A DNA stretch of 27,808 nucleotides from positions 1 to 27,808 of the IMG/VR virus record IMGVR_UViG_3300023278_002726. The stretch is one strand, 5' to 3'. The DNA is from a virus. Position 1 is the stretch's first letter; each line of letters starts with the position of its first letter. Below, one piece after another: positions 1,917 through 27,378 of this stretch. The position numbers and the translations under genes are program-made. Under the pieces are notes generated by a model. It saw only the letters and a program-made list of their open reading frames with translations. It ran no database searches and had not been told where the DNA came from.

Positions 1917-1949
1917 AACAAAAGATCCATTTTTATATTTAAAAGAAAA
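1917..1949 (+). promoter_or_regulatory. Promoter-like element, copy 1 (AACA-17-TATATTTA)
   Basis: AACA at 1917 lies exactly 17 nt upstream of TATATTTA (1934-1941), which is followed by AAAGAAAA and, 23 nt from the box start, by the ATG of gene 1957. TATATTTA matches the Bacteroidota -7 consensus TAnnTTTG at all but the last base. The element follows a strong terminator directly, which is where a new promoter is needed. Confidence 0.6.
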
Positions 1950-1956
1950 CAAAGAC

Positions 1957-2133
1957 ATGTTGCAGACTAAAAAGGAATTTGTTGGATTGACTTTTTTCAT
2001 TGATGGTGTATATAAAAACACACCTGAATTGACACAAGATGACATGAAAACACTTGGTGAAATGGGTTTTGGAAAGTATTTTGAAGAAGTTGCAGAAGAA
2101 AAACCAATAACAAAAAAGAAATCCAAGAAATGA
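1957..2133 (+). CDS. Small hypothetical protein (58 aa), head-tail region
   Basis: A 58-residue frame starting MLQTKKEFVG and ending in a lysine-rich tail (KPITKKKSKK). It stands between the tail tube and the portal, follows promoter-like copy 1, and its TGA overlaps the ATG of the next gene (ATGA at 2130-2133), a sign of translational coupling. Codon use matches the neighbours. No domain is recognised. Context suggests a structural or assembly accessory. Confidence 0.7.
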   Translation: MLQTKKEFVGLTFFIDGVYKNTPELTQDDMKTLGEMGFGKYFEEVAEEKPITKKKSKK

Positions 2134-2576
2134 TTTTCATCACAAGAAGAAGTGTTGATTCACAAGGTGCAGAAACACCAAAAGCAAACACAATTGTTGT
2201 GACAATCAGTGAAAAATTGAAGTCATCTGCAACAAATTTGTTGTGTGTCTTTGAATCAGACCAACAACACACCATTTCAAAGACTGTTTTTGCAAGTGGT
2301 TCTTCTTTTGTGACATTGGGTGAAAGAACTGATTCAATCAGAATCATTGAAGGTGGTGCATCAACAGAAACATTGACAGGAACTTTGAAAATATCACCTG
2401 CAGGTTTCTATTCTTACAAAATATATCAACAAAACAATTCAACAAATCTTGATGTCAATGATTCAAGTGTTGTTGCATTATTGGAACAAGGCAAATTGAC
2501 TGTTCTGGACACTGATGAACTAACAACAACAGAACACACAAACACTGTGGACAATTTCATTCACATAAATTCATAA
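2130..2576 (+). CDS. Hypothetical structural protein, head-tail region
   Basis: This 148-residue protein has alternating hydrophobic residues typical of a beta-rich virion protein, a central 'PAGFYSYKIYQQNNSTNLD' and a following 'LLEQGKLTVLDTD'. I have seen this pattern in Bacteroidota phage genomes but know of no assigned function. It is translationally coupled to gene 1957 by a 4-nt overlap, and the portal gene starts 1 nt after its stop codon. That tight spacing argues for co-expression with head and connector proteins. No transmembrane segment or catalytic motif is seen. Confidence 0.7.
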   Translation: MIFITRRSVDSQGAETPKANTIVVTISEKLKSSATNLLCVFESDQQHTISKTVFASGSSFVTLGERTDSIRIIEGGASTETLTGTLKISPAGFYSYKIYQQNNSTNLDVNDSSVVALLEQGKLTVLDTDELTTTEHTNTVDNFIHINS

Positions 2577-2577
2577 A

Positions 2578-4626
2578 ATGGCAAAGAAAAAGACAAAAGT
2601 TGTTTCAGATAAAACAACAAAGAACAACATTCCTTTGATGAATGTCCAATTCAGTGAAATGACATCACCAAAAGTGTCTGAAACAAGTCAGGGTGATTGG
2701 ATTGAATATGGAACAAGTGATTTGAAAAATCAATATCCACAATTTTTGATTGAAATCTACAACAATAGTTCAACACATTCAGCAATTGTGAATGCAACTG
2801 CACAAATGATTGCAGGTCGTGGATTCGTTATTGAAAACACTGAAATTCAAACTGCAGAAACCTTGTCAAAAGCAAGGAATTTCATGAATAAGGTGAACAG
2901 GGATGATGAATCACTGCATGATGTTTGGTCAAAGCTTTCACATGACATCAAATTGCAAGGTTCATTTGCAGTCAATGTGATTTGGTCAAAAGACAAAACA
3001 AGAATTGCTGAATTGTATCATGTACCTGTTGAACATTGTCGTGCAGGAAAAGTGAATGAACAAGGAAAGGTTGACACATGGTGGATTTCTGCAGATTGGT
3101 CACAATATAGAAAATCAGAATTTGAACCAAGACCTGTTGCAGCATTCAACACTAATGACAGAACAGAATCTTCACAATTGTTTTATGGTGGAATCTACAC
3201 TGCAGGTCAAGAAATTTATTCTGCACCTGACTACAGGGCTGCAGTGCCATGGATAGTGACAGACAAATTGACTGCAGAATTTCACATGAACAACATTGCA
3301 AATGGTTTTGCACCTTCAATGTGGGTGAATTTCAACAATGGGATTCCATCACAGGAAGAAAGATTTCAGATTGAAAATTCTATCAAGTCCAAATTCTCAG
3401 GAGTGCAGAACGCAGGCTCAATGGTTTTAACTTTCAGCGATGACGCATCCAAAAAACCTGACATCACACCAATTCAACAAAGTGATGCAGACAAACAATT
3501 TGTTGTGTTGAATGAATTGACAATTCAGAACCTTTTCATTTCACACAGGGTGACATCACCACAACTTCTTGGTGTAAAAACTGAAGGTCAACTTGGTGGA
3601 AGAAATGAATTGCAAGAGGCATTTGAATTGTACATGAACACAGTTGTTGAACCATTTCAGATGGTTCTGATGAGTTTTGTGGACACAGTGATGTCAACCA
3701 ACCATTTGAATGTGAAGTTGTCTGTGGAACAAGTTAAACCAATCAATTCAAGATTTGGAACAGATGTGTTGAAAGAGGTGTTGACAGTTGATGAAATTCG
3801 TGCAGAACTTGGATTTGAACCATTGCCAAAAGAAGATGAAACAGTTGAACAAGAAAACACAGAATTGTCACTTAAAAAATGGGATGATTCACTTGTGAAA
3901 TTGGATGAAGATTGCAAAAAAAAAGATGGATCTTGTGATGATTGTTCCTGTGAACAATATGACATGAATGATGACATTGCAGATGAACTTCTTGAAAGAC
4001 TTGATGAAGTTGCACAAGTTGTGAATGTTGATGAATGGGAAGAAATCCATGAATCAGAAGTTTTTGATGCAGAAGGTGAAGATGAAAACATGTCAAATGT
4101 TGAACTTGCATCCATTCCATTCATTCCAAAAGGTGACAAAAGAAAACCAACACCATTTGGTGATTCTTTCATGTTTCGTGTTTTGTACAGATACAAAGGT
4201 GGATTGAAATCAAATTCCAGAAAGTTTTGCAAAAAGATGGTTGACAATTCCAAGTCAAAAGGGTATGTGTATAGAAAAGAAGACATTGACACACTATCAT
4301 CAAAGCCATTGAACAAAGGATTTGGTGCAGGTGGTTCAGACACTTATGACATATTTTTGTGGAAAGGTGGTGTGTATTGTCACCATAGTTGGTCAAGGGT
4401 TGTTTTCATGCGAAGGAGAGTTCCAAAAGATGCAAATCTTGGATTCAATGTGATTGATGAAAATGGAAACAAAATCAATGTTCCTGCAGGTGAACTTTTG
4501 CCAAAAACACTTATCAAATATTATAAAAATAGTACAAACAAAGCATTGAAATCTGCAGGTGTTGTCCTTGAAGACAAGGTTGCACAGACAAGACCGATTG
4601 ACATGCCAAACCAAGGTAAAAAATAA
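2578..4626 (+). CDS. Portal protein with an extra C-terminal domain
   Basis: This 682-residue protein should form the ring at the capsid vertex through which DNA enters and leaves. Residues from about 1 to 430 look like a phage portal: 'VNATAQMIAGRGFVI' near the N-terminus, 'DKQFVVLNELTIQNLFISHR' and 'SPQLLGVKTEGQLGGRNEL' in the wing/stem region. An acidic linker follows (about 430-515, with a small Cys-rich patch KKKDGSCDDCSC). Then comes a separate C-terminal domain (about 520-682) with 'GSDTYDIFLWKGGVYCHHSW'. Portals of this host group sometimes carry such a tail; its role is not known to me. The protein is longer than a minimal portal (around 400-500 residues) because of that domain. A short patch near 3410-3446 has three CpG, unusual for this genome. 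Confidence 0.85.
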   Translation: MAKKKTKVVSDKTTKNNIPLMNVQFSEMTSPKVSETSQGDWIEYGTSDLKNQYPQFLIEIYNNSSTHSAIVNATAQMIAGRGFVIENTEIQTAETLSKARNFMNKVNRDDESLHDVWSKLSHDIKLQGSFAVNVIWSKDKTRIAELYHVPVEHCRAGKVNEQGKVDTWWISADWSQYRKSEFEPRPVAAFNTNDRTESSQLFYGGIYTAGQEIYSAPDYRAAVPWIVTDKLTAEFHMNNIANGFAPSMWVNFNNGIPSQEERFQIENSIKSKFSGVQNAGSMVLTFSDDASKKPDITPIQQSDADKQFVVLNELTIQNLFISHRVTSPQLLGVKTEGQLGGRNELQEAFELYMNTVVEPFQMVLMSFVDTVMSTNHLNVKLSVEQVKPINSRFGTDVLKEVLTVDEIRAELGFEPLPKEDETVEQENTELSLKKWDDSLVKLDEDCKKKDGSCDDCSCEQYDMNDDIADELLERLDEVAQVVNVDEWEEIHESEVFDAEGEDENMSNVELASIPFIPKGDKRKPTPFGDSFMFRVLYRYKGGLKSNSRKFCKKMVDNSKSKGYVYRKEDIDTLSSKPLNKGFGAGGSDTYDIFLWKGGVYCHHSWSRVVFMRRRVPKDANLGFNVIDENGNKINVPAGELLPKTLIKYYKNSTNKALKSAGVVLEDKVAQTRPIDMPNQGKK

Positions 4627-4628
4627 CT

Positions 4629-5210
4629 ATGGCAACACAAGTCCTTTACATATCAGAAAACAGGTTGAAAGAATCAACCACAATCAACCAAAATGTTGAC
4701 ACAGAATTGTTGATTCCAAACATCAAGATTGCACAGGACAAATATATCTTGACTGCACTTGGTTCAAAATTGGATGAACATCTTCAAAGTCTTATTTCTG
4801 CAGGAACACTTGATGATGCAGGAAATGAAAACTTTGAAAAGCTTGTGAACACATACATTCAACCTGCACTTGTTCAGTGGACATTGTATGAATCAATCAT
4901 TTTTCTTGGTTTCAAATTTAAGAACAAGGACATCATGCGAAAATCAAGTGAAACAGGACAACCTGCATCATTGGATGATTTGAAATTCTTGCGTAATGAA
5001 ATCCAAAACACTGCACAATGGTACACAGAAAGGTTGATTGACTATTTATGTCACAACAACAACCTGTTTCCACAATATTCACAGAACACAAATGAAGATG
5101 TCAGTCCATCAAGACACAACTATTTCAATGGAATGAATTTGGAACTGCAACCAAAAAGAAGAATCAACAACATCACCTTGGATGATTTTCTTCCATCAAA
5201 TTTGAAGTAG
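4629..5210 (+). CDS. Probable head-tail connector (adaptor) protein
   Basis: This 193-residue, largely helical protein starts 2 nt after the portal stop. The pattern 'NVDTELLIPNIKIAQDKYIL' followed by a 'LGSKLDEHL' segment and a long helix with 'YESIIFLGFKF' resembles the helical head-completion proteins that dock on the portal (HK97 gp6 / SPP1 gp15 type), common directly after portals. There is no catalytic motif. The C-terminus 'NNITLDDFLPSNL' is an exposed tail. I am fairly sure of a neck role and unsure of the exact component. Confidence 0.6.
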   Translation: MATQVLYISENRLKESTTINQNVDTELLIPNIKIAQDKYILTALGSKLDEHLQSLISAGTLDDAGNENFEKLVNTYIQPALVQWTLYESIIFLGFKFKNKDIMRKSSETGQPASLDDLKFLRNEIQNTAQWYTERLIDYLCHNNNLFPQYSQNTNEDVSPSRHNYFNGMNLELQPKRRINNITLDDFLPSNLK

Positions 5211-5318
5211 ATGGAAAAGAAAACACTTTCAAAATATAAAATTAAAAACAAAAATGAATCTGCATTAAAGACATTTTTGAAGAAAAAAGAATCAAAGACA
5301 TGGACAAAAAAGAAGTGA
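5211..5318 (+). CDS. Very small lysine-rich protein (35 aa)
   Basis: The ATG directly abuts the stop codon of the connector gene (TAGATG). The frame encodes 35 residues, 14 of them lysine, and overlaps the next gene by 19 nt. Tight packing favours translation. The extreme composition could be real (nucleic-acid or membrane binding) or just A-rich non-coding DNA. No function can be assigned. Confidence 0.4.
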   Translation: MEKKTLSKYKIKNKNESALKTFLKKKESKTWTKKK

Positions 5319-5470
5319 TGAAAGATGTTGTTGAAGTTCTTGGATTCAATTCCATGACATTGATGACTGTGACATTTGCAGACATTGAAAACATATTGAA
5401 AGTGATTGTTTTGCTTTTGTCAATTGCATATACAATCCAAAAAATGTATCACTTCAAAAACAAGAAATGA
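5300..5470 (+). CDS. Small single-pass membrane protein, possible lysis accessory
   Basis: A 56-residue protein with one clear hydrophobic segment at about residues 31-45 (NILKVIVLLLSIAYTI) followed by a basic tail (MYHFKNKK), preceded by an amphipathic N-terminal half. Small membrane proteins of this shape are common next to the endolysin in Bacteroidota phages and may be holins or antiholins. The M15 endopeptidase and a 3TM holin lie just downstream. The start at 5300 (MDKKEVMKD) is preferred; a later ATG at 5318 is possible. Confidence 0.65.
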   Translation: MDKKEVMKDVVEVLGFNSMTLMTVTFADIENILKVIVLLLSIAYTIQKMYHFKNKK

Positions 5471-5691
5471 TTTTGTCAATGCACATTTTTTTCAATAAGT
5501 GCAAGAATAAATTGATTTTTTTTAATGGTCAACTTTGTCTTTGTTTCCTATCAAGTGAAATTGTTGTGTTGCCATTTCTCATGTTTTTGATGTACTGATA
5601 TGCCACAAGACACAAAATGCCTTAAAACAAAGGAAAAGTGTGTCAGAAATGATTTTGAATAAAACAAATAAAATCAAATAAAAAGAAAAAG
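5471..5691 (+). other. Non-coding gap before the lysis genes
   Basis: These 221 bases hold no convincing gene. A weak inverted repeat (TGCAC near 5480, GTGCA near 5500) and two T-runs are present but do not form a clear terminator. The last 30 bases are A-rich, with an AACAAATAAAATCAAA segment that resembles the upstream half of the repeated promoter element but lacks the TATATTTA box. Confidence 0.4.
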
Positions 5692-6449: not shown

Positions 6450-7231
6450 TGTCAGAAGATAAAAGGAACACAATCAGAATGCGATTGAAACCACATGAAC
6501 ACCAACTTGTGATGGATTCAAGAAAAAAACAAAGAAATGTGTTGATTGTGGGTGACTTACATGCACCATTCATCAAAGGTCAATGCAATGATGGTGATTC
6601 CTATCTTCAACACTGTCTTGATGTCTATGAAAAGAACAATTGCAACCAAGTCATTCTGATTGGTGATTGTATTGATTCACACTATTCAAGTTTTCATGAA
6701 ACACATCCTGATGGATATGCAGCAGGTGAAGAACTTGACAGGGCTATTGACCAACTGAAACCATGGCATGATGCATTCCTAAAACTTGGAAACAAAGAAT
6801 GCATTGTGACAATTGGAAATCATGACGCAATAATTTCAAGAAAAGCCGTTCAAATGGGTATTTCACAGAAATGGTTGAAAGGTCTTTCAGAAGTTCTTGA
6901 AGTTCCAACATGGAAATTTGTTGATTCCTATGAACAAGATGGTGTCATCTACACACATGGAACAGGTTCATCAGGTGCAAGAGGTTGTCACAATAGGGTT
7001 GTCAATTGGGGAAAATCAGTTGTTCAAGGTCATATTCACACAGAATGTTCAGTTTCTTGGCACTGCACAAAGACATCAAGACATTTTGCAATGCAAGTTG
7101 GTTGTGGTGTGACTGATTCCAATCAATATGCACTTGCGTATGCAAAGAACTTCACAAAAAGGTCAATCATTGCATGTGGTGTTGTTTTGAACAATGGTGA
7201 ACTTCCAATCACTTATCCAATGCATCTGTGA
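6449..7231 (+). CDS. Calcineurin-like metallophosphoesterase
   Basis: This 260-residue enzyme carries the full set of metal-binding motifs of the calcineurin-like superfamily: GDLHAPF (35-41), GDCIDSH (72-78), GNHD (123-126), YTHG (169-171) and GHIHTE (194-199). It should use two metal ions to hydrolyse a phosphoester; the substrate cannot be read from sequence and may be nucleotides, DNA ends or a phosphoprotein. It closes the rightward block after the lysis genes, with TAATG coupling to the holin. Its last 23 bases overlap, antisense, the end of the C5 methyltransferase gene. A slightly different composition near 6825-6860 (extra CpG) is noted. Confidence 0.9.
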   Translation: MSEDKRNTIRMRLKPHEHQLVMDSRKKQRNVLIVGDLHAPFIKGQCNDGDSYLQHCLDVYEKNNCNQVILIGDCIDSHYSSFHETHPDGYAAGEELDRAIDQLKPWHDAFLKLGNKECIVTIGNHDAIISRKAVQMGISQKWLKGLSEVLEVPTWKFVDSYEQDGVIYTHGTGSSGARGCHNRVVNWGKSVVQGHIHTECSVSWHCTKTSRHFAMQVGCGVTDSNQYALAYAKNFTKRSIIACGVVLNNGELPITYPMHL

Positions 7232-8336
7232 TGTTCTTGATGATTGCCTGAATCACAGGAACAGAAATTGTGTTTCCTGCTTGTTTATAAAGTTGAGTAT
7301 CTGAACAAACATTTGCAGCTTTGTCAAAGTCTTCTTTTGAAAAACCTTGCAATTTCCAACATTCAAAAGGTGTCAATCTTCTGATTCTTTTTGTGTTGAC
7401 AATGTTTCCCTTCCAAATTTCTTGACCTGAATTCAATGCAGGACACAAACCATTGACATCATATATTCTATTCTGTTGGTATGGTTGAACACCACCTGAT
7501 TCTTTTGATGGATTCAATTGTCTGATTTCAATTGCTTGTGTATTTTGTGCATCAATGCAATATGCAGTGCCATCAGTCTTTGACAAACTACCTGAACCAC
7601 CTTTTCCAGTCTTTGAACTTCTTGGAAAAAGTGAATGTGCAACAACATCAGACAATTCACCATTGAATTGAATCAACTTGTCAATCTTTTTTTGTGTCAA
7701 ATAGAACTTTGCATCAACTTCATCTTCCAAAATATCAATCAATTTTGTTTTCAATTCAAAACCTTTTGGAATTCTAAATTCTGCAAATTTATCAAAACCA
7801 ACAATGAAAATTCTTTCCCTGTTTTGTGGCAATCCAAAATCTTTTGTGTTCAACAGACAAGTGTGCAAATGGTATCCAAGACCATCTTCAAACATATCAA
7901 ATGACATTTGTGAATTCACAGTTCCACCACCATTTGACAACAGGTCAATGATTGTTTGATATGTGTTTCCACCATCATGATTCAACAATCCTTTGACATT
8001 TTCCAAAACAAAGACTTTTGGTCTGTTGATTCTGATGAATTCTGCAGTGTCAAAAAATAGTGTTCCCCTAATATCATCAAATCCTTTTCTTTTTCCTGCA
8101 ATACTGAATGCCTGACATGGAAATCCTGCAAAATACATGTCAAGTCTTTCCACCGATCCATGATTCCTGTTCCTTATGTCATCAAAGAAAATATTTGGTT
8201 TGTGTATTTCAAGAAATGACTTCTTTGCATATTCATCAACATCACAAGCAAAGACATGTTCAATGTCAATTCCAAGGTTCTTCAATGCAACTTCAGGTGA
8301 ACCAATTCCTGAAAAATCACTTCCAACTTTCATCAT
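7209..8336 (-). CDS. DNA (cytosine-5) methyltransferase
   Basis: This 375-residue enzyme methylates cytosine at C5. Motif I is DFSGIGSPEVAL (7-18), motif IV GFPCQAFS (71-78, catalytic Cys74), motif VI VLENVKG (110-116), motif VIII QNRERIFIVGF (171-181), and motifs IX-X lie near the C-terminus ('RRLTPFECWKLQGF', 'QAGNTISVPV'). All key residues are present, so it should be active. The target-recognition region (about 200-300) does not reveal the specificity. No restriction endonuclease gene is adjacent, so it is an orphan enzyme, probably protecting phage DNA. The start overlaps the upstream stop (ATGA). It is the last gene of the leftward block and converges on the phosphoesterase gene. Confidence 0.95.
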   Translation of the reverse strand: MMKVGSDFSGIGSPEVALKNLGIDIEHVFACDVDEYAKKSFLEIHKPNIFFDDIRNRNHGSVERLDMYFAGFPCQAFSIAGKRKGFDDIRGTLFFDTAEFIRINRPKVFVLENVKGLLNHDGGNTYQTIIDLLSNGGGTVNSQMSFDMFEDGLGYHLHTCLLNTKDFGLPQNRERIFIVGFDKFAEFRIPKGFELKTKLIDILEDEVDAKFYLTQKKIDKLIQFNGELSDVVAHSLFPRSSKTGKGGSGSLSKTDGTAYCIDAQNTQAIEIRQLNPSKESGGVQPYQQNRIYDVNGLCPALNSGQEIWKGNIVNTKRIRRLTPFECWKLQGFSKEDFDKAANVCSDTQLYKQAGNTISVPVIQAIIKNITDALDK

Positions 8337-8710
8337 TGTGAAAAGTTTTTCAATTGAAAAATCAGTGCATCATGCACTTGTTGTTGTGAATCAATCCTTT
8401 GTCCAAGTCCATCAAGATATTCAAAATATTCATCTTTGGTCTTTGCAACAAAATATCCTTTTTGACAACTGCAAAGATGCAAAAGAACACCTGTCATTCT
8501 GATGTGGTTGATGATTTTCCTGATTCTTGGTGATGTCAATTTGTATTTTCCAAACATCTGTTTTGCATTCAATGTGTCACAAATGAATTTGTTTGACACT
8601 GCACTGTGTTTTCCAATTTTGTTTGACAATCCTTTGATGACTATTGGAAGAACTTTGTGAAGTTCAACATCAGTCAATTCATGTGTGTATTTTTCAAATC
8701 CTTCAATCAT
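8333..8710 (-). CDS. Probable winged-helix DNA-binding protein
   Basis: A 125-residue protein with 'VSNKFICDTLNAKQMFGKYK' and 'SPRIRKIINHIRMTGVLLHL' followed by 'QKGYFVAKTKDEYFEYLDGL'. The helix - helix - beta wing pattern, with 'KGYFVA' as the wing strand, is that of small winged-helix proteins often found in phage replication regions. Both ends overlap neighbours by 4 nt (ATGA), so it is co-translated with the 133-residue protein upstream and the C5 methyltransferase downstream. It could be a regulator or a replication accessory. The fold is inferred by eye. Confidence 0.6.
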   Translation of the reverse strand: MIEGFEKYTHELTDVELHKVLPIVIKGLSNKIGKHSAVSNKFICDTLNAKQMFGKYKLTSPRIRKIINHIRMTGVLLHLCSCQKGYFVAKTKDEYFEYLDGLGQRIDSQQQVHDALIFQLKNFSQ

Positions 8711-9108
8711 GATTTCAATTTTTTGACATGTTCACCAATCAATTTTGTTCTTTCTATCCATTCCAATTGTTGCAATTTTCCTTGTTCAAGTTTTTCTTTC
8801 TTTGCCTTTGATTTGGGTTCAAACTGATGCAACCATTTAAACCAAACTTTCACAGAAAGTGTGAAGTCATCATTGTTCCTGACACCATGGTGAAATGCAC
8901 CTTTGACATCTTCAACATAGAACTTTGCAAACTTTGGTGTGGATGCCAAATCTTCAACCAAGATGTTTGCAAGTGTCACAAAATCTTCTGCAGTGACATT
9001 TCTGACACCAAGTTCCAGAAAAGCTTTGGAAATAATATCAACACAATCAAGTGTCAATTGTTGTTTGTGGTTTTTGTATAGAAACCAAACTTGTTTTTCT
9101 TTATTCAT
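8707..9108 (-). CDS. Hypothetical protein, possible replication accessory
   Basis: A 133-residue, mostly helical, basic protein. The pattern 'EDFVTLANILVEDLASTPKF' and 'VEDVKGAFHHGVRNNDDFTL' followed by 'VKVWFKWLHQFEPKSKAKKE' resembles small proteins found beside replication initiators in Bacteroidota phages, where a helicase-loading role has been suggested. I cannot confirm that from sequence. It ends in a charged helical tail (KLQQLEWIERTKLIGEHVKK). It overlaps its neighbours by 8 nt (upstream) and 4 nt (downstream), and its codon use is typical of the genome, unlike the TpA-rich pair just upstream of it. Confidence 0.6.
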   Translation of the reverse strand: MNKEKQVWFLYKNHKQQLTLDCVDIISKAFLELGVRNVTAEDFVTLANILVEDLASTPKFAKFYVEDVKGAFHHGVRNNDDFTLSVKVWFKWLHQFEPKSKAKKEKLEQGKLQQLEWIERTKLIGEHVKKLKS

Positions 9109-9388: not shown

Positions 9389-9389
9389 C

Positions 9390-10097
9390 TTAAAAAAGTG
9401 AAGTTTGATTAATATATGGCAACAATCTTTTATTTGACATGTCAATGTATTCTTGTGTAATTTCTGAACCAATATAATTTCTTTTTAATCTTGCAGCAGA
9501 ACAACATGTTGTTCCTAAACCACTGAAACAATCAAAAACCAAATCACCTTCTTTTGAAAAATACTCAACAAAATAGTCTGACATTTGCATTGGCATTGTT
9601 GCACCATGACCTTTGAATGATTCTTTTTTGTTCCATTTTTTTATGTTTGGAACATAGTTGTTTTTAGGAAAATTATTATATTCAAAATTCATTTTATCAT
9701 CTTTTCCAAGTATTAATACAACTTCAAAACCTGTTGCCATTTTTCCCTTAACAATTTGTGATAAAGAATGTTTGTGCCAAATAAATACATCTTTTATGTT
9801 TTCTGAAAATTCTCCAATTAATTTGTAATATATTTTTTTATTATTTGATAAAAATTGAAAATTGAAAAATGTATAGTGTTTATTAACTCTTATTAATTCA
9901 ATTAAAATATTTTTAATCCATATATAATAATCATCATCAGACAAATTGTCTTTATATTCTTTATAAAAATTACCAACTTCTAAACTTTTTCCACCTGTAT
10001 TGTATGGAGGTGAAGTGATAGTAATGTCAACAAAGTTGTCTGGCATTTTCGCCATTAATTCTAAACAATCACTTTTGTAAATTTTATTTATTTCCAT
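9390..10097 (-). CDS. DNA methyltransferase, TSPPY type (N4-cytosine or N6-adenine)
   Basis: This 235-residue enzyme has the catalytic motif TSPPYNTGG (28-36) near the N-terminus and the AdoMet-binding motif FDCFSGLGTT (about 188-197) near the C-terminus, the beta-class order. TSPPY is usual for N4-cytosine enzymes but also occurs in adenine enzymes. The 'GATMPMQMSDYFVEYFSKEGDL' region preceding motif I is characteristic. ATG at 10097 gives MEINKIYKSDCLELM, the family's normal N-terminus. It follows the upstream gene by 1 nt. Codon use (TTA, ATA, AAT, many TA steps) differs sharply from neighbouring phage genes, indicating recent transfer. No nuclease partner is seen. Confidence 0.93.
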   Translation of the reverse strand: MEINKIYKSDCLELMAKMPDNFVDITITSPPYNTGGKSLEVGNFYKEYKDNLSDDDYYIWIKNILIELIRVNKHYTFFNFQFLSNNKKIYYKLIGEFSENIKDVFIWHKHSLSQIVKGKMATGFEVVLILGKDDKMNFEYNNFPKNNYVPNIKKWNKKESFKGHGATMPMQMSDYFVEYFSKEGDLVFDCFSGLGTTCCSAARLKRNYIGSEITQEYIDMSNKRLLPYINQTSLF

Positions 10098-10098
10098 T

Positions 10099-10734
10099 TT
10101 ATTTTTTGTTTTGTTGTTCAATAATTTGTCTGGCTCTTTGCCATTTGTCAATTCCTTCAGAAATCTTTGATTTTGGTTTGTTGTTTGTCATTGTAGTTTT
10201 TGAAGGGAATGACCTTTTTGACCATGTTGCAAGTCTTCTTGCAGTTGACCATGTTTTTTGCAATTCAAACTTTGACTTTGTTTTTGACTTGTTTGGTTCT
10301 GTCCAATAGGAAACAAAATCATTCAACATTTCTTGATTGTATTCTGTGAATGCAAATACTTCTTTTGCAAACTTTTCACACCTTTCATCAATTGTTGTTT
10401 TCACCTTTGTTTCTTCTTGTTCTTCAACTTGATATGCAGACCACTGTGCAATTGTCACAACACTGAATTTGTTGGTTGTTAACAAATGAATATATCCTTT
10501 TTCCTGCAATTGATTCAATTTGTTTCTGACTGTGGTTGGCTTGATGTTCAGTTCTTGTGATGCAGAAATCCTTCCTGTAATGAACTGACCTGCATTGACT
10601 GTGTGAACACCAACCTGATGTGTCTTGTGTGATGCCTTCAACAAAGACCAAACAAACACTTTCAACAAATCTGAATCACCTGTGAAGATGCCATTGTCCA
10701 ATATTTTTCTGTGCAATTTAATCCATCCTAACAT
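10099..10734 (-). CDS. Winged-helix replication initiation/organiser protein
   Basis: A 211-residue protein with the N-terminal pattern typical of phage replisome organisers: 'MLGWIKLHRKILDNGIF' then 'LLKVFVWSLLKASHK', 'VNAGQFITGRISASQELNI', 'TTVRNKLNQLQEKGYIHL' and 'FSVVTIAQWSAYQ' (to about 102). Together these form a winged helix that would bind the phage origin. The second half is charged and helical, with no ATPase motif, and may contact host replication proteins. The start at 10734 is chosen because the motif begins there; it overlaps the DnaA-like gene by 17 nt. The neighbours (DnaA-like, ERF, DUF3127) support a replication role. Confidence 0.75.
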   Translation of the reverse strand: MLGWIKLHRKILDNGIFTGDSDLLKVFVWSLLKASHKTHQVGVHTVNAGQFITGRISASQELNIKPTTVRNKLNQLQEKGYIHLLTTNKFSVVTIAQWSAYQVEEQEETKVKTTIDERCEKFAKEVFAFTEYNQEMLNDFVSYWTEPNKSKTKSKFELQKTWSTARRLATWSKRSFPSKTTMTNNKPKSKISEGIDKWQRARQIIEQQNKK

Positions 10735-11182
10735 GTGACAATTCTTTGATTTGTTCAACAATCTTTTCTTTCTTTTTTGTCATTGATTCAATCAAGATTT
10801 CCAAAGCTTTCAATCTTTTTGTCAATGAAACATTGTGTCTGTATGAATCAACATCACCTGTTTCCACAATCACCTGTGCCTTCATCAAGTTTTCTTCAAA
10901 TGATGGATTGAATTTTCGGTCATCAAATTTCCGTCTGTATATATAGATGGAAGTTCTGTCCCTGTTCAATATTTTTGCAAGTGCAGTTTCATTGATGTCA
11001 AAATACTTTTCAATCAATATGGATGCAGTTGCAGTGGCATCAGGAATTGGTTTGATTCTTGCTTTGGATTTGATGTCTGCAGGTTTGATTCTGTAAACAC
11101 TGCAAGATGCATCAATAATTTTGTCAATTTCCTGCATTATTTCAGGTGTGACATTTTCAAAAAATCTGTTGGATTTGTTCAT
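10718..11182 (-). CDS. DnaA domain IV-like DNA-binding protein
   Basis: A 154-residue protein whose centre (about 29-85) resembles the DNA-binding domain of the initiator DnaA: 'VYRIKPADIKSKARIKPI' corresponds to the DnaA segment with Y-x-V/I-x-x-x-D-I-x-S-K-x-R, followed by 'ASILIEKYF' and 'LAKILNRDRTSIYIYRRKF', comparable to the DnaA 'IG..F..RDHTTV' helix. There is no AAA+ ATPase domain. A coiled coil (about 118-150) follows. The start at 11182 (MNKSNRFF) is the first ATG; upstream extension uses only TTG. It probably recognises a phage origin or represses host initiation. It is followed by the winged-helix replication gene with a 17-nt overlap. Confidence 0.75.
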   Translation of the reverse strand: MNKSNRFFENVTPEIMQEIDKIIDASCSVYRIKPADIKSKARIKPIPDATATASILIEKYFDINETALAKILNRDRTSIYIYRRKFDDRKFNPSFEENLMKAQVIVETGDVDSYRHNVSLTKRLKALEILIESMTKKKEKIVEQIKELSHVRMD

Positions 11183-11183
11183 T

Positions 11184-11669
11184 TTATAAGAATTTAAAAA
11201 GTTGTTTGTTGTTGTTGTAATATTTAGCACATTGTTCAGGTGTTGCAGGTCTTTCAAAGTCCTGTTTTATCCAAACATTTTGGTTGTTCAATTCTTTCCA
11301 CAATTCAATTGACTGATCCATTGTTGAAACAAATTTCACACCATAGACTGCAGACATATTTGTGTCAACATATTTTCGCAAAGTTAACCAATCAAAATGA
11401 AAACAGACACTTGGATTCTGTGGTTTTTGGAAAATATATGTGAATTGGAAAAGTCCATTCCTTGAATTTCTTTCAATCAATCTGTGTGGTCTTGTTTCAT
11501 GAATGATTCCTTTGGTTGACAAAGGTTCAAAGTCAAATGGCAGTTCTGCACCACCAAGTTTGATGATTGGCATCCTTGTGCCATCTGCATAAACCAACAC
11601 AGGAAATTCACCTGTGTGGTCTTGCAGCATCACTATTCCATGCTTAGAATGGTGCATTGTCAATTTCAT
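11184..11669 (-). CDS. Hypothetical protein in the replication operon
   Basis: A 161-residue protein between DUF3127 and the DnaA-like gene, overlapping the first by 26 nt and 1 nt from the second. It has beta-rich first-half segments 'GIVMLQDHTGEFPVLVYADG' and 'MPIIKLGGAELPFDFEPL', and a helical second half with 'SIELWKELNNQNVWIKQDFE'. It ends in 'AKYYNNNKQLFKFL'. ATG at 11669 (MKLTMHHSK) or 11657 could be the start. I do not recognise a family. Its position suggests a DNA-processing accessory. Confidence 0.65.
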   Translation of the reverse strand: MKLTMHHSKHGIVMLQDHTGEFPVLVYADGTRMPIIKLGGAELPFDFEPLSTKGIIHETRPHRLIERNSRNGLFQFTYIFQKPQNPSVCFHFDWLTLRKYVDTNMSAVYGVKFVSTMDQSIELWKELNNQNVWIKQDFERPATPEQCAKYYNNNKQLFKFL

Positions 11670-11952
11670 TTGATTCAACAACACCAACCAAATCAATCTT
11701 CCAACCATTCACATTTGTGAACCATTTTCCTGACCATTCTTTTGATGACAAGTTGATGTGAACATTGACTTCATCATTGATTTTCAAGTTGTTCAACAAT
11801 GAACACTTTTCACCAAGGAATGAAATTGAAAGGTGTGGATTGTATTCATCACCTGTGTCAATGACAAGATTCTGTCTTGTCCATTCTTTTCCTGATTTTG
11901 AAGTTCCTTTTTGAACTTCACTGATTTGATAAACATTTCCTTTGATTTCCAT
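11644..11952 (-). CDS. DUF3127 OB-fold protein, probable single-strand DNA binder
   Basis: A 102-residue protein with the DUF3127 pattern: 'MEIKGNVYQISEVQKGTSKS' then 'GKEWTRQNLVIDTGDEYNPH', 'ISFLGEKCSLLNNLKINDEV' and 'SGKWFTNVNGWKIDLV'. The family has a single-strand-DNA-binding-like OB fold. It ends in 'ESNEIDNAPF', an acidic tail with a terminal Pro-Phe like that of bacterial SSB, through which SSB contacts other replication proteins. No classic SSB gene was seen, so this probably serves as the phage's SSB. It follows the ERF gene after an 8-nt gap and overlaps the next gene by 26 nt. Confidence 0.8.
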   Translation of the reverse strand: MEIKGNVYQISEVQKGTSKSGKEWTRQNLVIDTGDEYNPHLSISFLGEKCSLLNNLKINDEVNVHINLSSKEWSGKWFTNVNGWKIDLVGVVESNEIDNAPF

Positions 11953-13454: not shown

Positions 13455-13511
13455 GTTGATTAATATGTCTGCAATATACACACTTTTAATTAATTACCAA
13501 CAATAATCAAC
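13455..13511. repeat. Inverted repeat spanning the divergent promoter region
   Basis: GTTGATTA (13455-13462) and TAATCAAC (13504-13511) are exact 8-bp inverted copies separated by 41 bases, in the gap between the first leftward gene and the first rightward gene. Paired half-sites at this spacing could bind a regulator that controls both blocks. Chance occurrence in AT-rich DNA is possible. Confidence 0.4.
13471..13500 (-). promoter_or_regulatory. Candidate leftward early promoter (Bacteroidota type)
   Basis: On the minus strand, TTG (13498-13500) is followed after 19 bases by TATATTGC (13471-13478), close to the Bacteroidota TTG / TAnnTTTG promoter pattern, about 20 bases upstream of the ATG at 13451. 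It is the only such pair noticed in this divergent gap. No equally good rightward promoter was found there. Confidence 0.35.
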
Positions 13512-13867: not shown

Positions 13868-14204
13868 GTTAGCACCATTTCCAAAACCAAGGATGACACA
13901 ATCAGACAAGTGGAAAAAAAGACCTGTTGTTGTGAAGTATTGGAATTGGAAATCTTCATTGCAAAAATATGGCATCAACTTTGATTCAGGTCGGGTTGAT
14001 GTCATTTTTTTTGTGCCAATGCCAAAGTCATGGACAAAGAAGAAATGTGTGGAAATGGATGGAAAACCACATCAATCAAGACCTGACATTGACAACTTCC
14101 TGAAAGCTTTGTTTGATGCAGTATGTTCTGAAGATTCACACATTCACACAGTCACTGCAAAAAAAGTGTGGTCAAAAAAAGGAATGATTGAATTGAACAT
14201 TTAG
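13857..14204 (+). CDS. rusA: RusA-family Holliday junction resolvase
   Basis: A 115-residue endonuclease that cuts four-way DNA junctions, needed after annealing-driven recombination and before packaging. Family features are the N-terminal 'PFPKPRMTQSDKW' segment and the metal-binding region 'RPDIDNFLKALFDAV' (75-89) with acidic residues Asp77, Asp79 and Asp87, followed by 'EDSHIHTVTAKKVW'. Length is typical (about 115-130). ATG at 13857 gives MKIELAPFPKPRMT; earlier TTG codons are less likely. It overlaps the Nmad1-like gene by 11 nt and precedes promoter-like copy 2. Confidence 0.88.
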   Translation: MKIELAPFPKPRMTQSDKWKKRPVVVKYWNWKSSLQKYGINFDSGRVDVIFFVPMPKSWTKKKCVEMDGKPHQSRPDIDNFLKALFDAVCSEDSHIHTVTAKKVWSKKGMIELNI

Positions 14205-14228
14205 TTCATTTTTATATTTAAAGAAAAG
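14193..14228 (+). promoter_or_regulatory. Promoter-like element, copy 2 (TTG-AACA-17-TATATTTA)
   Basis: TTG (14193-14195) directly followed by AACA (14196-14199) lies 17 nt upstream of TATATTTA (14213-14220). This fits the Bacteroidota TTG-N17-TAnnTTTG pattern best of the five copies. The ATG of the sigma-like gene is 21 nt after the box start. The left part overlaps the end of rusA. Confidence 0.65.
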
Positions 14229-14233: not shown

Positions 14234-14821
14234 ATGGAAATGACATCTGAATTTTATGGAAAATTGTTGGTTGCTGCAAGGAACATCACAAACAATCACC
14301 AAGACCATGAAGAACTTCTTCAGGAATGCATGGTTGCACTTTATGAAAAAGACAAAGATTTCATTCAGGAACTTCATGACAACAAATCATTGCAATTCTA
14401 TTGTGTCAGAATAATGTTGAACATGTGGAATTCATCAACATCTTCATATCATTACAAATTCAGATTTCAAAAGAAATTCATGTTTGAATTCTTTGAAGGT
14501 GTTCCTGATGATTATTGTCCAAGTAATAAAAATGTTTTGACACCTACAATCCAAGAAATCAGAAACCAATTTCACAATGACTTTCTTGATGATGCAGTTG
14601 ACACAATGCATGATGTTCTTGGTGAATTGTATTGGTATGATTCAGAACTTTTCAAATTGTACAAATTTGGATCAAACAATGGAAAAAGATGGACATTGAA
14701 TTCACTTGCAGAAAAGACAGGAATTTCAAGAACATCAATTTTTGACACAACACACAGAGTGATGAAATACTTGGACAAACGAATGAAAGAAGAAACAACA
14801 CTTTTGACCTATGACATTTAA
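14234..14821 (+). CDS. Sigma-70-like transcription factor
   Basis: A 195-residue protein with two parts resembling sigma factors. Residues about 8-85 look like region 2: 'AARNITNNHQDHEELLQECM' followed by 'LQFYCVRIMLNMWNSSTSSYHYKFR', which compares with the core-binding and -10-recognising helices. Residues about 150-190, 'SLAEKTGISRTSIFDTTHRV' and 'MKYLDKRM', form a helix-turn-helix like region 4. The middle is acidic. It lacks regions 1 and 3, like ECF-type factors. It would direct host RNA polymerase to phage promoters. Its own gene sits behind copy 2 of the repeated promoter element, hinting at autoregulation. Distant homology is judged by eye. Confidence 0.65.
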   Translation: MEMTSEFYGKLLVAARNITNNHQDHEELLQECMVALYEKDKDFIQELHDNKSLQFYCVRIMLNMWNSSTSSYHYKFRFQKKFMFEFFEGVPDDYCPSNKNVLTPTIQEIRNQFHNDFLDDAVDTMHDVLGELYWYDSELFKLYKFGSNNGKRWTLNSLAEKTGISRTSIFDTTHRVMKYLDKRMKEETTLLTYDI

Positions 14822-17579: not shown

Positions 17580-17605
17580 AACTAAAAATTGAATTTTTAT
17601 ATTTA
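17580..17605 (+). promoter_or_regulatory. Promoter-like element, copy 3
   Basis: TATATTTA (17598-17605) follows AAC at 17580 at a distance of 18 nt, one more than in the other copies, and is followed by an A-rich leader. The tail chaperone ATG is 18 nt after the box start. The AT-rich segment just upstream of the box (TTGAATTTT) resembles copies 1 and 2. Confidence 0.55.
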
Positions 17606-17615: not shown

Positions 17616-18284
17616 ATGAAGACAATCACAATCACAGACAATGACAAGGTGTTCAACTACACAATTCCAGAAACATGGAAACAAGTGTCATTGGCACAAT
17701 ATCAGAAACTGATGTCAGTTGAAATGGATGAAATGACTGAACAACAATTGATGTTTCATTTGATTGAATCATTGATTGAAATTCCTTCACAAAAGATTGT
17801 GGATTTGAAGAAGTCAGATGTTGAAGAAGTGTTCAAACATTTGATGGAACTTGCACAATCCAAACCATCAGAACATTTGAATTTGATTGTTGAAATTGAT
17901 GGTGTTGAATATGGATTCAATTCAAAGCTTTCAGACATCACCATTGGTGAATTTGGTGATTTGGACACATACCTTCAAGATGGTTTCAAGAACCTTGACA
18001 AAGTGATGTCAATCCTTTACAGACCTATTGTTGACAAGGACAAGAAATCATTCAGGGTTGAAAAATATGACTTTGACAAGTGTGATGAAAGAACAGAATT
18101 GTTCAAAAACAAAATGTCAATAGATTCAATTTATGGATGTCTGTGTTTTTTTTTGAATTTAGGTCAAGAATATACACTGACTTCAATCCATTATTTGAAG
18201 AAACAAAACAAGAAAAAGGAATCAAAACAGATGAAGAAAGTTTTGGAAACAAGTGGGGATGGTATGCAATCTTCTACAAATTGA
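17616..18284 (+). CDS. Tail assembly chaperone, zero-frame product (gpG-like)
   Basis: A 222-residue acidic, helical protein beginning MKTITITDNDKVFNYTIPETW, which I associate with tail assembly chaperones of Bacteroidota phages. Such proteins coat the tape measure during tail assembly and are made as a short form and a frameshifted long form. Here the frame crosses nine T (18146-18154), and a -1 frame opens just past it with a chaperone-like C-terminal half. Unshifted translation gives a basic tail ('KKQNKKKESKQMKKV') of 43 residues after the slip site. It is separated from terL by copy 3 of the promoter-like element. The tape measure gene is 6.3 kb away, unusual for a chaperone. Confidence 0.75.
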   Translation: MKTITITDNDKVFNYTIPETWKQVSLAQYQKLMSVEMDEMTEQQLMFHLIESLIEIPSQKIVDLKKSDVEEVFKHLMELAQSKPSEHLNLIVEIDGVEYGFNSKLSDITIGEFGDLDTYLQDGFKNLDKVMSILYRPIVDKDKKSFRVEKYDFDKCDERTELFKNKMSIDSIYGCLCFFLNLGQEYTLTSIHYLKKQNKKKESKQMKKVLETSGDGMQSSTN

Positions 18285-18388: not shown

Positions 18389-18390
18389 AA

Positions 18391-18893: not shown

Positions 18894-18931
18894 TGACATC
18901 AATTTGACAACAAAATGACATCAATTTGACA
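18894..18931 (+). repeat. Tandem direct repeat in a non-coding gap
   Basis: TGACATCAATTTGACA occurs exactly twice, at 18894-18909 and 18916-18931, with a 22-bp period (about two helical turns). It lies upstream of the GTG-start gene at 18975, within the 110-base gap 18865-18974. It could be a regulator site or promoter upstream element. Similar words are common in this genome's coding sequence, so chance is not excluded. Confidence 0.6.
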
Positions 18932-18974
18932 CATACAAGAATGAAAAGAATGATAAGATTAATAATTATATATA

Positions 18975-19526: not shown

Positions 19527-19529
19527 AAA

Positions 19530-20909: not shown

Positions 20910-20911
20910 AA

Positions 20912-24436: not shown

Positions 24437-24442
24437 AAAAAA

Positions 24443-24607
24443 ATGAATGAATTTGAAATTATAGGAAAATCAATGCAGTCAATGATGAAGGTCATGAAAT
24501 CTTCACTTGCAATGATGACACAAATGAAGTTAAAAACAGAACACAACAAGATTGTTCTTGGTGAATTCTACAAAAAACCAAAAAGATGGCAGAAAAGCAA
24601 ACAATAA
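24443..24607 (+). CDS. Small methionine-rich helical protein (54 aa)
   Basis: A 54-residue frame starting MNEFEIIGKSM with nine methionines, mostly in one helix (10-28), then a basic tail. It starts 6 nt after the tail protein stop and overlaps the tape measure start by 22 nt. Such tight packing suggests a real, co-translated gene, perhaps a small assembly helper. The composition could also arise by chance; no family is recognised. Confidence 0.5.
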   Translation: MNEFEIIGKSMQSMMKVMKSSLAMMTQMKLKTEHNKIVLGEFYKKPKRWQKSKQ

Positions 24608-26244
24608 ACATTGACATTGTTGTCAATGATGGAAAAGCAAAACAATCACTTGACAAGGTAACAAAATCAACAGGTGATTTGAACAAAGAATCACAACAAT
24701 CACTTGACAATTTTGGTGCATTTGGTTTGACACTTGGTGGTGTGAAAACTGCATTTGCAAAAATTATTCCAACATCAAAACTATTATTCAAGTCATTGAA
24801 AATGGGTTTGATTTCAACAGGAATTGGTGCATTTGTTGTTTTGATTGGTTCACTTGTTTCATACTTTACAAACACACAAAAAGGTGCAGACAAACTTGCA
24901 GTTGTGTTTGCAGGTCTTGGAACTGCAGTTGCAGTCATTACAGACAGAGTTTCACAATTTGGTGAGGCAGTCACACAATTTTTCACAGGTGACTTCAAAG
25001 GTGCAGCAGAAACAGTCAAAGGTGTTGTTTCAGGAATTGGTGAAGAAATAAAAAATGAAGTTGCAGCAATCACAGAAATCACAAAAAGAGTACAGGAATT
25101 GCGTGATGTTGAAAGGGATTTTGGTGTTGAAAGAGCAAAGACAAACCAAGAAATTGCAAAAGCAAGACTTCTTGCAGAAGATGAAAATCTGACACTTCAA
25201 GAAAGAATCAAACATCTTGAAACTGCAAACAAATTAGAACTTGAAACAACAGAAGATGCAATAAAACTTGCAGAAGAAAAACTTCTTTTGAAACAAAGAG
25301 AAGTTGACCTTGGTGAATCTATGGCAGAGGATTTGGATGAAGTTGCACAATTAGAAATTGCACTGATTGACCTGCAAACACAGTCATTCAGCACAAGAAA
25401 AAGACTTGCAACAGGAATTGAAACATTGAGAGTTGAACAAAGAACCAAAGAAAAAGCAGATGCAGATGCAAGACAAAAAGAAATTGATGATGAACAAAAA
25501 GCATTGGACAAAGCTGCAGAAGATGATGAAAAAAGATTGAAAAAAGAAGTTGCAGAACAAAAGAAAGCAGAAACAGAAAGACAAGCAATCAGACAAAAAA
25601 GGTTGCAAGATGCAACAATACTTGCACAGGCAGAACAACAACTTGAAATGGCAACTTTTGATGCAGTGAAAACAGGTCTTGATGTTGTCAAGAATGCATT
25701 GAAAGAAGGTTCAAAAGCACAAAGGAATTTTGCACTTTTTCAAATTGGTGTGGACACTGCAAAAGCAATTTCAACACTTGTTTCAGGTTCTGAAATAGCA
25801 GCAGCTCAGTTTGCTGCAGCAACAGGGCCAGCAGCACCATTTACCTATGCAGCAACAAAGATTTCACTTTATGCAACAGGTCTTGCGTCAATTATGGGAA
25901 ACATCAACCAAGCAAAAGAATTGCTTTCATCAGAACCTGCATTTGCAAGTGGTGGAATGGTTGGAGGTTATGGATCAGGAACATCAGATTCTGTTTCTGC
26001 AAGACTTTCAAAAGGTGAATCAGTAATCAATGCAAGGTCAACTTCAATGTTTCAACCTTTATTGTCTGCAATGAATGTTGCAGGTGGTGGTGTTGGATTT
26101 GCAAGGGGTGGTGTTGCAGGTGGTTCATCTATTCCAACCAATGCAAGTGCATTCATGTCACCTGTCAAGACTTATGTGGTGACTGATGAAATGACAAATT
26201 CACAAAATCAACTTGCATCAATAAGAAGAAAAGCAACATTCTAA
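24586..26244 (+). CDS. Tape measure protein
   Basis: A 552-residue protein with hydrophobic segments at about 65-115 ('LISTGIGAFVVLIGSLVSYF', 'LAVVFAGLGTAVAVITDRV'), a long charged coiled coil (about 160-345, Ala/Glu/Lys/Gln-rich) and a second Ala-rich hydrophobic stretch (about 385-440). The C-terminal 'FASGGMVGGYGSGTSDSVSA' followed by 'RLSKGESVINARSTSMFQPL' is a hallmark of tape measure proteins in this host group. Tape measure length sets tail length; at about 0.15 nm per residue this predicts a short tail of roughly 80 nm. The gene lies after the hub/tip genes. Confidence 0.88.
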   Translation: MAEKQTINIDIVVNDGKAKQSLDKVTKSTGDLNKESQQSLDNFGAFGLTLGGVKTAFAKIIPTSKLLFKSLKMGLISTGIGAFVVLIGSLVSYFTNTQKGADKLAVVFAGLGTAVAVITDRVSQFGEAVTQFFTGDFKGAAETVKGVVSGIGEEIKNEVAAITEITKRVQELRDVERDFGVERAKTNQEIAKARLLAEDENLTLQERIKHLETANKLELETTEDAIKLAEEKLLLKQREVDLGESMAEDLDEVAQLEIALIDLQTQSFSTRKRLATGIETLRVEQRTKEKADADARQKEIDDEQKALDKAAEDDEKRLKKEVAEQKKAETERQAIRQKRLQDATILAQAEQQLEMATFDAVKTGLDVVKNALKEGSKAQRNFALFQIGVDTAKAISTLVSGSEIAAAQFAAATGPAAPFTYAATKISLYATGLASIMGNINQAKELLSSEPAFASGGMVGGYGSGTSDSVSARLSKGESVINARSTSMFQPLLSAMNVAGGGVGFARGGVAGGSSIPTNASAFMSPVKTYVVTDEMTNSQNQLASIRRKATF

Positions 26245-26259
26245 TCAAAAATATATTTA
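26235..26259 (+). promoter_or_regulatory. Promoter-like element, copy 4
   Basis: AACA (26235-26238) lies 17 nt upstream of TATATTTA (26252-26259), followed by AAAGAAAA and the protease ATG 21 nt from the box start. Its left end overlaps the last codons of the tape measure gene. Confidence 0.6.
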
Positions 26260-26272
26260 AAAGAAAATAATC

Positions 26273-27355
26273 ATGGACAAAAAACCATTCAAAATTATTG
26301 AATTAGTAATTGATGAAGAAAATGAAGATGTGTCAATTGATGCAATCAGTCTTGTGACTGAACCTGCAATCATGGTTGATTTTCTCTATTTCAATAAGCA
26401 AAAAAAATCAAATGTTTGTCTTGCAAAATTAGATGAAGAACAACAGATGTTGGTTTCACCTGCATTGATTCCAAACAAACAGATTTTCAGAGTTGGTCAA
26501 GATGGTCAAGAATACTATGTGTATTTTTCAAAAGAAACAGTTCGAAAATCTGCACATTCTTATTTGAAATATCAGAACAACCACAATGCAACCATTCAAC
26601 ATGAATCAAAGGTTTCAGGTGTTTTCACAGTGGAATCTTGGATTGTTGAAGACAAGGAAAATGACAAGTCAACAAAGTATGGTTTTGATGTTCCTGAAGG
26701 CACATGGATGGTTGCAATGAAGATTGAAAATGATGAAGTGATTCAAGGCATCAAAGATGGTGTTTTGAAAGGTCTGTCAATTGAAGGTTTCTTTGTTGAC
26801 AAGATGCAAAAGATGTCAAGTGAAAAGATGGAACAGATTGGTGAAATGGATGGTTTTCCAATATTTGACACCAAAGAATCTGCAATTGAATATGCAAAGA
26901 CAATTGGTTGTGATGGATTCCATTCACACATTCTTGATGATGGATCAGAAGTCTTCATGCCATGCACAGACCATGAAGTTCTTGATGCATTGGTTGAATT
27001 GATTGAAGAAGAAGAAATGAAAGACATCTTGATGGAAAAACATGAATTTGCATCCTACACAAACTATCCAAAAGGTGCATCTGCAAATGCAGAAAAAGGA
27101 ATGATGGAAAATGAAGAAAGAGGAAACAAATGTGCAACACAAGTTGGAAAAATTCGTGCATCACAATTGGTTGCAAGAAAACCGATTTCATTCAAAACTG
27201 TGAAAAGGGTTTATTCCTATTTAAAAAGGGCAAAGACTTATGATTCAGGAAATTGGAATGATTGTGGAACAATATCATTTGCACTTTGGGGTGGTGATGT
27301 CATGTTGAGGTGGTCAGAAAAAATCATCAAACAAGAAGAAAACAAAACAAAATAA
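26273..27355 (+). CDS. XkdF-type prohead protease with an extra C-terminal domain
   Basis: A 360-residue protein. The first 185 residues match XkdF-like putative serine proteases (S78-type head maturation enzymes): 'AISLVTEPAIMVDFLYF' (25-41), a His-containing 'NNHNATIQHE' (about 102-111) and 'VIQGIKDGVLKGLSIEGFFV' (about 155-175, with the candidate catalytic Ser). A second domain (about 260-355) carries 'ASANAEKGMMENEERGNKC', 'QVGKIRASQLVARKPIS' and 'ALWGGDVMLRWSEKII', a module often attached to phage proteases or other head proteins, with unknown role. It sits before scaffold and capsid genes, as a maturation protease should. Confidence 0.8.
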   Translation: MDKKPFKIIELVIDEENEDVSIDAISLVTEPAIMVDFLYFNKQKKSNVCLAKLDEEQQMLVSPALIPNKQIFRVGQDGQEYYVYFSKETVRKSAHSYLKYQNNHNATIQHESKVSGVFTVESWIVEDKENDKSTKYGFDVPEGTWMVAMKIENDEVIQGIKDGVLKGLSIEGFFVDKMQKMSSEKMEQIGEMDGFPIFDTKESAIEYAKTIGCDGFHSHILDDGSEVFMPCTDHEVLDALVELIEEEEMKDILMEKHEFASYTNYPKGASANAEKGMMENEERGNKCATQVGKIRASQLVARKPISFKTVKRVYSYLKRAKTYDSGNWNDCGTISFALWGGDVMLRWSEKIIKQEENKTK

Positions 27356-27378
27356 ATCAATTTATATTTAAAAGAAAA
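27346..27378 (+). promoter_or_regulatory. Promoter-like element, copy 5
   Basis: AACA (27346-27349) lies 17 nt upstream of TATATTTA (27363-27370), followed by AAAGAAAA and, 25 nt from the box start, the scaffold ATG. The left half overlaps the end of the protease gene. A promoter here would drive scaffold and capsid expression up to the terminator at 1253. Confidence 0.65.

Follow-up and report, generated by a model that had tools for sequence, protein, structure and literature searches.

Probable two-part late promoters and a small phage sigma factor as their proposed reader, in a marine phage presumed to infect Bacteroidota

Five copies of a two-part element are present in the 27.8-kb virus record IMGVR_UViG_3300023278_002726 (27,808 nucleotides (nt) in all, hereafter the window), a marine phage inferred to infect Bacteroidota. 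Each copy consists of a half-site A[AC][CT]A (abbreviated AMYA), a 13-nt spacer and the octamer TATATTTA (the box), and stands shortly before the ATG of a gene on the late strand. The five elements are most readily explained as late promoters recognised by RNA polymerase together with the two-domain, extracytoplasmic function (ECF)-like sigma factor that the phage itself encodes (at 14234–14821), a reading to which we assign a probability of roughly 0.84.

Results

Five copies of the element in the window

The box TATATTTA was found exactly five times, always on the plus strand (Table 1), and no further exact copy was found on either strand of the whole window. By comparison, 0.12 copies (SD 0.33) were expected, and five were reached in 0 of 100 dinucleotide shuffles. 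The original prediction, made from this DNA alone, had placed a shared box 18–25 nt before an ATG at five sites and suggested scanning the genome for the motif; box start to ATG indeed measures 18–25 nt (box end to ATG 15, 13, 10, 13 and 17 nt, i.e., 10–17 nt), and the scan returned only these five sites, all shortly before an ATG.

The upstream half had been described as AACA exactly 17 nt before four boxes and off by one at the fifth. Four sites carry AACA in that register (AACA-N13-TATATTTA: four forward matches, zero reverse matches and zero with a reversed-pattern control), but the fifth was misjudged: promoter 3 has ACTA at −17 and AACT at −18. ACTA fits the half-site consensus of related phages (below), so promoter 3 keeps the true register after all; and because AACT-N14-box recurs before the orthologue of the same gene in many relatives, the apparent shift belongs to the promoter of that gene. 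The pattern A[AC][CT]A-N13-TATATTTA fits all five sites, with a Markov expectation of 0.005, although it was derived post hoc with the sites already known and draws its support from the relatives. A search with the AACA spacing set to N15–19 matched only two sites and was discarded, the correct spacing being N13. Downstream of the box, the window sites carry AAAGAAAA, which relatives do not conserve; a pattern scan that included it mixed true relatives with chance matches in coding sequence and was also abandoned.

The element recurs before the same genes in divergent phages

About a hundred sigma–box pairs were read in relatives, and several hundred others were counted, 498 and 334 in two scans. 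The two-part element likewise stands before four orthologous genes (the one following TerL, those for protease and scaffold, and g1957) in phages with 25%–50% capsid identity, which is the outcome that the predicted promoter class called for in related phages. Over 41 dereplicated relative sites, positions −17 to −12 of the half-site read A(98%)-[AC]-[CT]-A(93%)-A-A. In L015 (portal 41% identical), ACA-N13-TATATTTA stands exactly before the protease and scaffold genes, and the same element precedes both genes in L031 and L037 (= G001/G002; capsids 26% identical). The promoter 4 site is further found before the protease orthologue of TCTATTAT-phages, and the promoter 5 site before the scaffold orthologue of L052, L053 and most TCTATTAT-phages. 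The promoter 1 site precedes g1957 orthologues in G003, L052, G019, G021, G006 and TCTATTAT-phages. A capsid-profile scan added 80 relatives, in nearly all of which the scaffold gene is preceded by an AAACA-type half and, after it, an AT box. Two capsid relatives, L127 and L128 (PAPR01000004.1 and PAPR01000049.1), are filed under a Pseudooceanicola metagenome-assembled genome and are probably misbinned phage contigs.

Across all credible sites, about 88 lie on the plus (late) strand and one on the minus strand. A search for enriched intergenic 8-mers that assumed no motif beforehand singled out the box in many relatives, and all five copies of TCTATTAT are noncoding in several of them. Counts of exact TATATTTA across all relatives had resembled the coding background, which was resolved once boxes were read phage by phage. 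The element's repeated occurrence ahead of orthologous genes and its late-strand placement strongly support the phage-specific promoter class for late structural genes that had been proposed. The proposal had included the sigma gene in this regulon; the four late-gene sites are conserved, whereas the sigma-gene box (promoter 2) is kept only in the near-identical relatives L001–L005, and the idea that the sigma gene generally activates itself was accordingly rejected. The cultured phages 11b and phi10:1 (TerL 47%–48%) showed no comparable TATATTTA set in the stretches examined, and L006–L009 were dropped as sigma relatives because these fragments derive from the terminase of an unrelated phage.

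Boxes change in concert within genomes

When the four orthologous genes were read in 24 relatives, each genome had mostly one box variant at all its sites. Between genomes the box takes the forms TATATTTA, TATATTTT, TATACTTA, TCTATTTA, TCTATTAT, TACATTAT and TTTATATA, with CGTTAATA in the cultured Nonlabens phage P12024S; the register of TTTATATA is uncertain, and G009 and P12024S have box registers unlike those of the other phages. Close variants are mixed in some genomes (one TATATTTA among TATACTTA in G018, and one TATATTTT in L015). That boxes at several places of one genome change together implies that their reader acts in trans. In L033, boxes TATATAAA/TATATATAG abut the ATG upstream of 1083, 2228 and 4879, two of them with TGAGCCA upstream, and are perhaps another variant of the system.

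Box divergence tracks the phage sigma factor

We compared box distance with the distances of nine phage proteins, namely the sigma factor and eight other phage or virion proteins. Box and sigma distances were correlated (Mantel r = 0.61, p = 0.0004), and remained so given each of the eight other proteins (partial Mantel r = 0.36–0.70, p ≤ 0.007), whereas these eight explained no box divergence once sigma was accounted for.

For box base 2, the second-best matching sigma column was residue 69, which was then checked in sigma relatives collected later (43 dereplicated phages). In this set, T69 occurred with TATATTTA/TATATTTT in 22 of 22 phages, R69 with TCTATTAT in every readable case, and N69 with A at box base 2. 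With the earlier phages and two later-located boxes included, residue 69 and box base 2 agree in all 56 dereplicated phages. Parsimony places three changes of residue-69 class on the tree, each accompanied by a box change. The most telling cases are the sigmas of L217 and G017, which are nested among R69/TCTATTAT sigmas: within the TCTATTAT clade, L217 (two sites) and L228 have N69 and the box TATATTAT, and G017 (four sites) has N69 and the box TACATTAT. An independent-pairs sign test was uninformative owing to the small number of switches. We regard the correspondence between residue 69 and box base 2 as strong but not conclusive.

A two-domain sigma factor as the proposed reader

The 195-residue window protein matches Pfam Sigma70_r2 at E = 4e-4 (20.5 bits, the cut-off being 24), and its relatives match Sigma70_r4_2 (down to 6e-7) and Sigma70_r4. 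A homologue is present in 21 of 27 relative records, and five of the six records lacking a match are contigs shorter than 17 kb. L031 carries, beside its homologue, a second, longer sigma-70-like gene (11202–11867, minus strand). A profile search of the Protein Data Bank gave a sigma factor, 1h3l, as the best, weak match (E = 0.41). AlphaFold2, run on 55 sigmas, predicts two helical domains with a linker of low confidence between them, the second domain (104–188) with a helix-turn-helix, and a confidence (pLDDT) of 80.8 for the window sigma. This prediction has folded sigma2 and sigma4 domains without sigma1.1, sigma1.2 or sigma3, the layout of ECF (group 4) sigma factors. The best Foldseek matches are sigma factors, including the ECF factors sigL and sigH; a differing domain orientation keeps E at about 0.09.

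In the predicted structure, residue 69 lies in the loop (67–70) between helices 53–66 and 71–86. In ECF sigma factors the corresponding loop, between helices 3 and 4 of sigma2, holds the flipped −10 base, and in Mycobacterium tuberculosis sigma H the loop residues T76 and N77 contact it (PMC6411747).

We propose that RNA polymerase with the small phage sigma would recognise the five late promoters, with domain 4 reading the conserved upstream half, domain 2 melting the box, and the specificity loop using its residue 69 to read box position 2 (about −11) as a flipped base. The original prediction had recognised neither this likely reader nor the variability and clade-wide spread of the box. Read-through from upstream genes probably supplies the first sigma, after which promoter 2 may amplify it in this lineage; the early genes on the minus strand seem to use host-type promoters.

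Predicted transcript starts and short leaders

In Flavobacterium johnsoniae, transcription starts 4–5 nt after the −7 box (PMC6847099). On this geometry, transcription here would start 4–5 nt past the box, predicting leaders of about 5–13 nt for the late mRNAs of the window, in line with the very short leaders originally proposed. The gap from box to ATG ranges from 4 to 22 nt and is two-peaked: of 89 sites, 44 have a gap of exactly 4 or 5 nt, in agreement with the host distance from box to start, few have 6–9 nt, and the rest mostly have 10–22 nt. In most relatives the gaps cluster at 4–5 nt. P12024S has a gap of 4 nt at six of six sites. A 4–5-nt gap puts the ATG at the predicted RNA start, so that these genes should be leaderless, and late mRNAs would thus lack leaders at many of the relatives' genes. 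An alternative placement, with box positions 3–8 at −12 to −7, would put the transcription start inside the ATG at gaps of 4–5 nt; the host-like placement of the box at −12 to −5 was preferred. For comparison, about 5.5% of mRNAs are leaderless in Flavobacterium psychrophilum (PMC9723704).

For this large clade of marine Bacteroidota phages as a whole, we lean, with some reserve, towards late regulons each run by one sigma, whose code has repeatedly been switched in concert over the whole genome (T or N at residue 69 with A, R or K with C or T, at base 2), with many virion genes leaderless from +1 in most of these phages.

Alternative explanations

Could the boxes simply be variants of the host primary-sigma pattern TAnnTTTG ending in A, read by the host sigma A with the phage sigma irrelevant? 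The resemblance is real, as had been pointed out from the start: TATATTTA agrees with this −7 pattern at five of six fixed positions, and the gaps fit host geometry (PMC6847099). All five window boxes nevertheless end in A rather than G, the host box shows no enrichment across the window (32 copies against 26 expected), and the AMYA half at fixed spacing is foreign to the host promoter, just as the AACA half had been said to fall outside the host consensus. At the same gene positions, moreover, relatives have TCTATTAT, TACATTAT and CGTTAATA, which break the host consensus, and all boxes of a given phage shift jointly, in step with its sigma. We therefore consider reading by host sigma A improbable. 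Still less probable is that the elements are translation signals, that is, A-rich initiation regions in hosts without Shine-Dalgarno sequences. Their closeness to the ATG and the AAAGAAAA after the box in the window would suit this idea, and A-rich upstream regions do help initiation in F. johnsoniae (PMC6847099); the fixed distance, however, is that between AMYA and box, while box and ATG are 4–22 nt apart, AAAGAAAA is not kept in relatives, and the box occurs at only some late genes and almost never on the early strand (1 against about 88).

Concerted change points to a trans-acting phage reader without itself naming sigma, and the comparison covered sigma and eight other proteins only, so another phage DNA-binding protein (an activator, or a replication or packaging protein) might bind these sites and recruit host polymerase indirectly. 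The −35/−10-like layout and one-strand placement before ATGs fit a sigma factor best, and the correlation is specific to sigma and involves a residue in its predicted specificity loop; this explanation, too, seems very unlikely to us. Several observations do weigh against the phage sigma as reader. With 14 dereplicated sigmas the correlation weakens (r = 0.38, p = 0.007) and the partial test given g4629 is not significant (p = 0.19), and Mantel permutation leaves some shared ancestry in. TATATTTA is retained in G001/G002, whose sigma is very diverged (24%–27%), the register of the G009 box is uncertain, and the match of residue to base depends on just three independent switches. In addition, the Sigma70_r2 match of the window sigma falls short of the Pfam gathering score, and self-activation through promoter 2 is not conserved.

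Genome, host and layout

The ends of the record overlap by 52 nt with one mismatch (1–52 and 27757–27808), so that it is probably a complete genome, circularly permuted or terminally redundant; IMG/VR nevertheless classes it as linear. The scaffold gene spans the record junction. Replication- and methylase-type genes occupy the minus strand from 13451 down to 7209, and the sigma-like, TerL, tail, protease, scaffold, capsid and portal genes lie on the plus strand, in a stretch that starts at 13.5 kb, crosses the junction and ends at 7.2 kb. The nearest named phages are Cellulophaga phi10:1 and Flavobacterium 11b for TerL (47%–48%) and Nonlabens P12024S/L for the capsid (25% identity; 25%–26% for P12024S), from which we infer a Bacteroidota host, probably flavobacterial. 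One gene label found no support: the gene at 17616 had been called a tail chaperone, which no family match backs.

Table 1. Promoter elements, proposed reader and served genes in the window
Feature	Positions	Strand	Details
Late promoter 1 (predicted)	1917–1941	+	AACA 1917–1920, N13, TATATTTA 1934–1941; before g1957; predicted transcription start about 1946–1947
Late promoter 2 (predicted)	14196–14220	+	AACA 14196–14199, N13, box 14213–14220; before sigma gene 14234–14821
Late promoter 3 (predicted)	17581–17605	+	ACTA 17581–17584 (AACT at 17580), N13, box 17598–17605; before 17616–18284
Late promoter 4 (predicted)	26235–26259	+	AACA 26235–26238, N13, box 26252–26259; before protease-like gene
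Late promoter 5 (predicted)	27346–27370	+	AACA 27346–27349, N13, box 27363–27370; before scaffold-position gene 27388
Phage sigma factor, 195 aa, proposed reader	14234–14821	+	sigma2 helices 5–66 and 71–86; loop 67–70 with T69; linker; sigma4-like helix-turn-helix 134–188
Major capsid protein candidate	331–1242	+	phrog_11320 and position; downstream in the scaffold transcription unit; used as clade marker
Gene g1957, 58 aa	1957–2133	+	no function assigned; served by promoter 1
Gene directly after TerL, 222 aa	17616–18284	+	phrog_32199 (unknown function); served by promoter 3
Prohead protease-like gene	26273–27355	+	Peptidase_S78_2, E = 4e-18; served by promoter 4
Scaffold gene (label by position only)	starts 27388, over record end into 1–303	+	served by promoter 5

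The portal protein (2578–4626, 682 aa) has a long C-terminal extension that is absent from the L015 orthologue (404 aa); in L031, a stretch similar to this extension forms a separate gene (8296–8874). The early cluster on the minus strand includes two DNA methyltransferase-type genes (7209–8336 and 9390–10151), the first C5-cytosine by Pfam and the second assigned by sequence appearance only, and a gene for a DnaA C-terminal-domain protein (10718–11257). Before the first early gene, g13131, lies a host-like promoter, TTG-N19-TATATTGC (13471–13500, minus strand), which is similar to motif SM5 (TAnnTTGY) in F. psychrophilum.

Implications

If true, this reading would define a late-transcription switch for Bacteroidota phages and offer naturally occurring data on the co-evolution of a sigma factor with its promoters; our searches of an open-access library turned up no prior account of such a switch in these phages. 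The unusual parts are the shared, switching sigma–promoter code and the probable leaderless virion genes. N69 sigmas with matching boxes inside the R69 clade make the code testable by point exchange, and the 4–5-nt spacing is a sharp prediction of leaderless virion-gene messages that the cultured P12024S allows to be tested. Such messages would then occur in hosts where leaderless mRNAs are rare. The sigma–box pairs also suggest orthogonal expression parts for Flavobacteria.

Comparison with known systems

Relative to the Bacteroidota primary-sigma promoter (TTTG/TAnnTTTG), box position and composition are similar and the distance from box to transcription start is presumed identical. The last base here is A, not G, however, the relatives' boxes are entirely different, and an AMYA half with a 13-nt spacer takes the place of a weak TTTG near −33. 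T4 late promoters (TATAAATA, gp55/gp33) share an AT-rich 8-bp box, a small, highly divergent phage sigma and late genes, yet they have no upstream element, and recognition is divided between two proteins, gp55 and gp33 (a sigma4 mimic), with activation by the sliding clamp (PMC2988020). In the phages studied here the upstream element is present and both domains are predicted in one protein.

Among cultured phages, the Inhavirus P12024S (L192) has a capsid homologue and, near TerL, gp33 with Sigma-70 region 2. Six copies of CGTTA[AC]TA (at 167, 3019, 5400, 23949, 25189 and 26790) lie 4 nt before an ATG, most with AAAACA upstream. It differs in its box, in a wider AACA-N16 spacing and in a sigma that the clade profile missed.

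Judged by mechanism and published descriptions, the closest known kind would be the regulon of the phage ECF sigma in phiEco32, 7-11 and SU10 (Kuravirus group), where gp36 serves middle/late promoters with the box tAATGTATAtA 6–8 nt upstream of the transcription start (PMC4281155, PMC4331800). Both systems combine a small phage ECF-type sigma, a few copies of a phage-specific box before structural genes (here on the late strand) and divergent gene clusters. phiEco32-type promoters are described as extended −10 promoters with no recognisable −35 (PMC5333181), whereas the promoters described here carry AMYA at −17 (A at −17 in 98% and at −14 in 93% of 41 sites). This clade thus departs from the phiEco32 group in its upstream half at fixed spacing, its presumed Bacteroidota hosts, a box that varies by phage and many genes that are probably leaderless.

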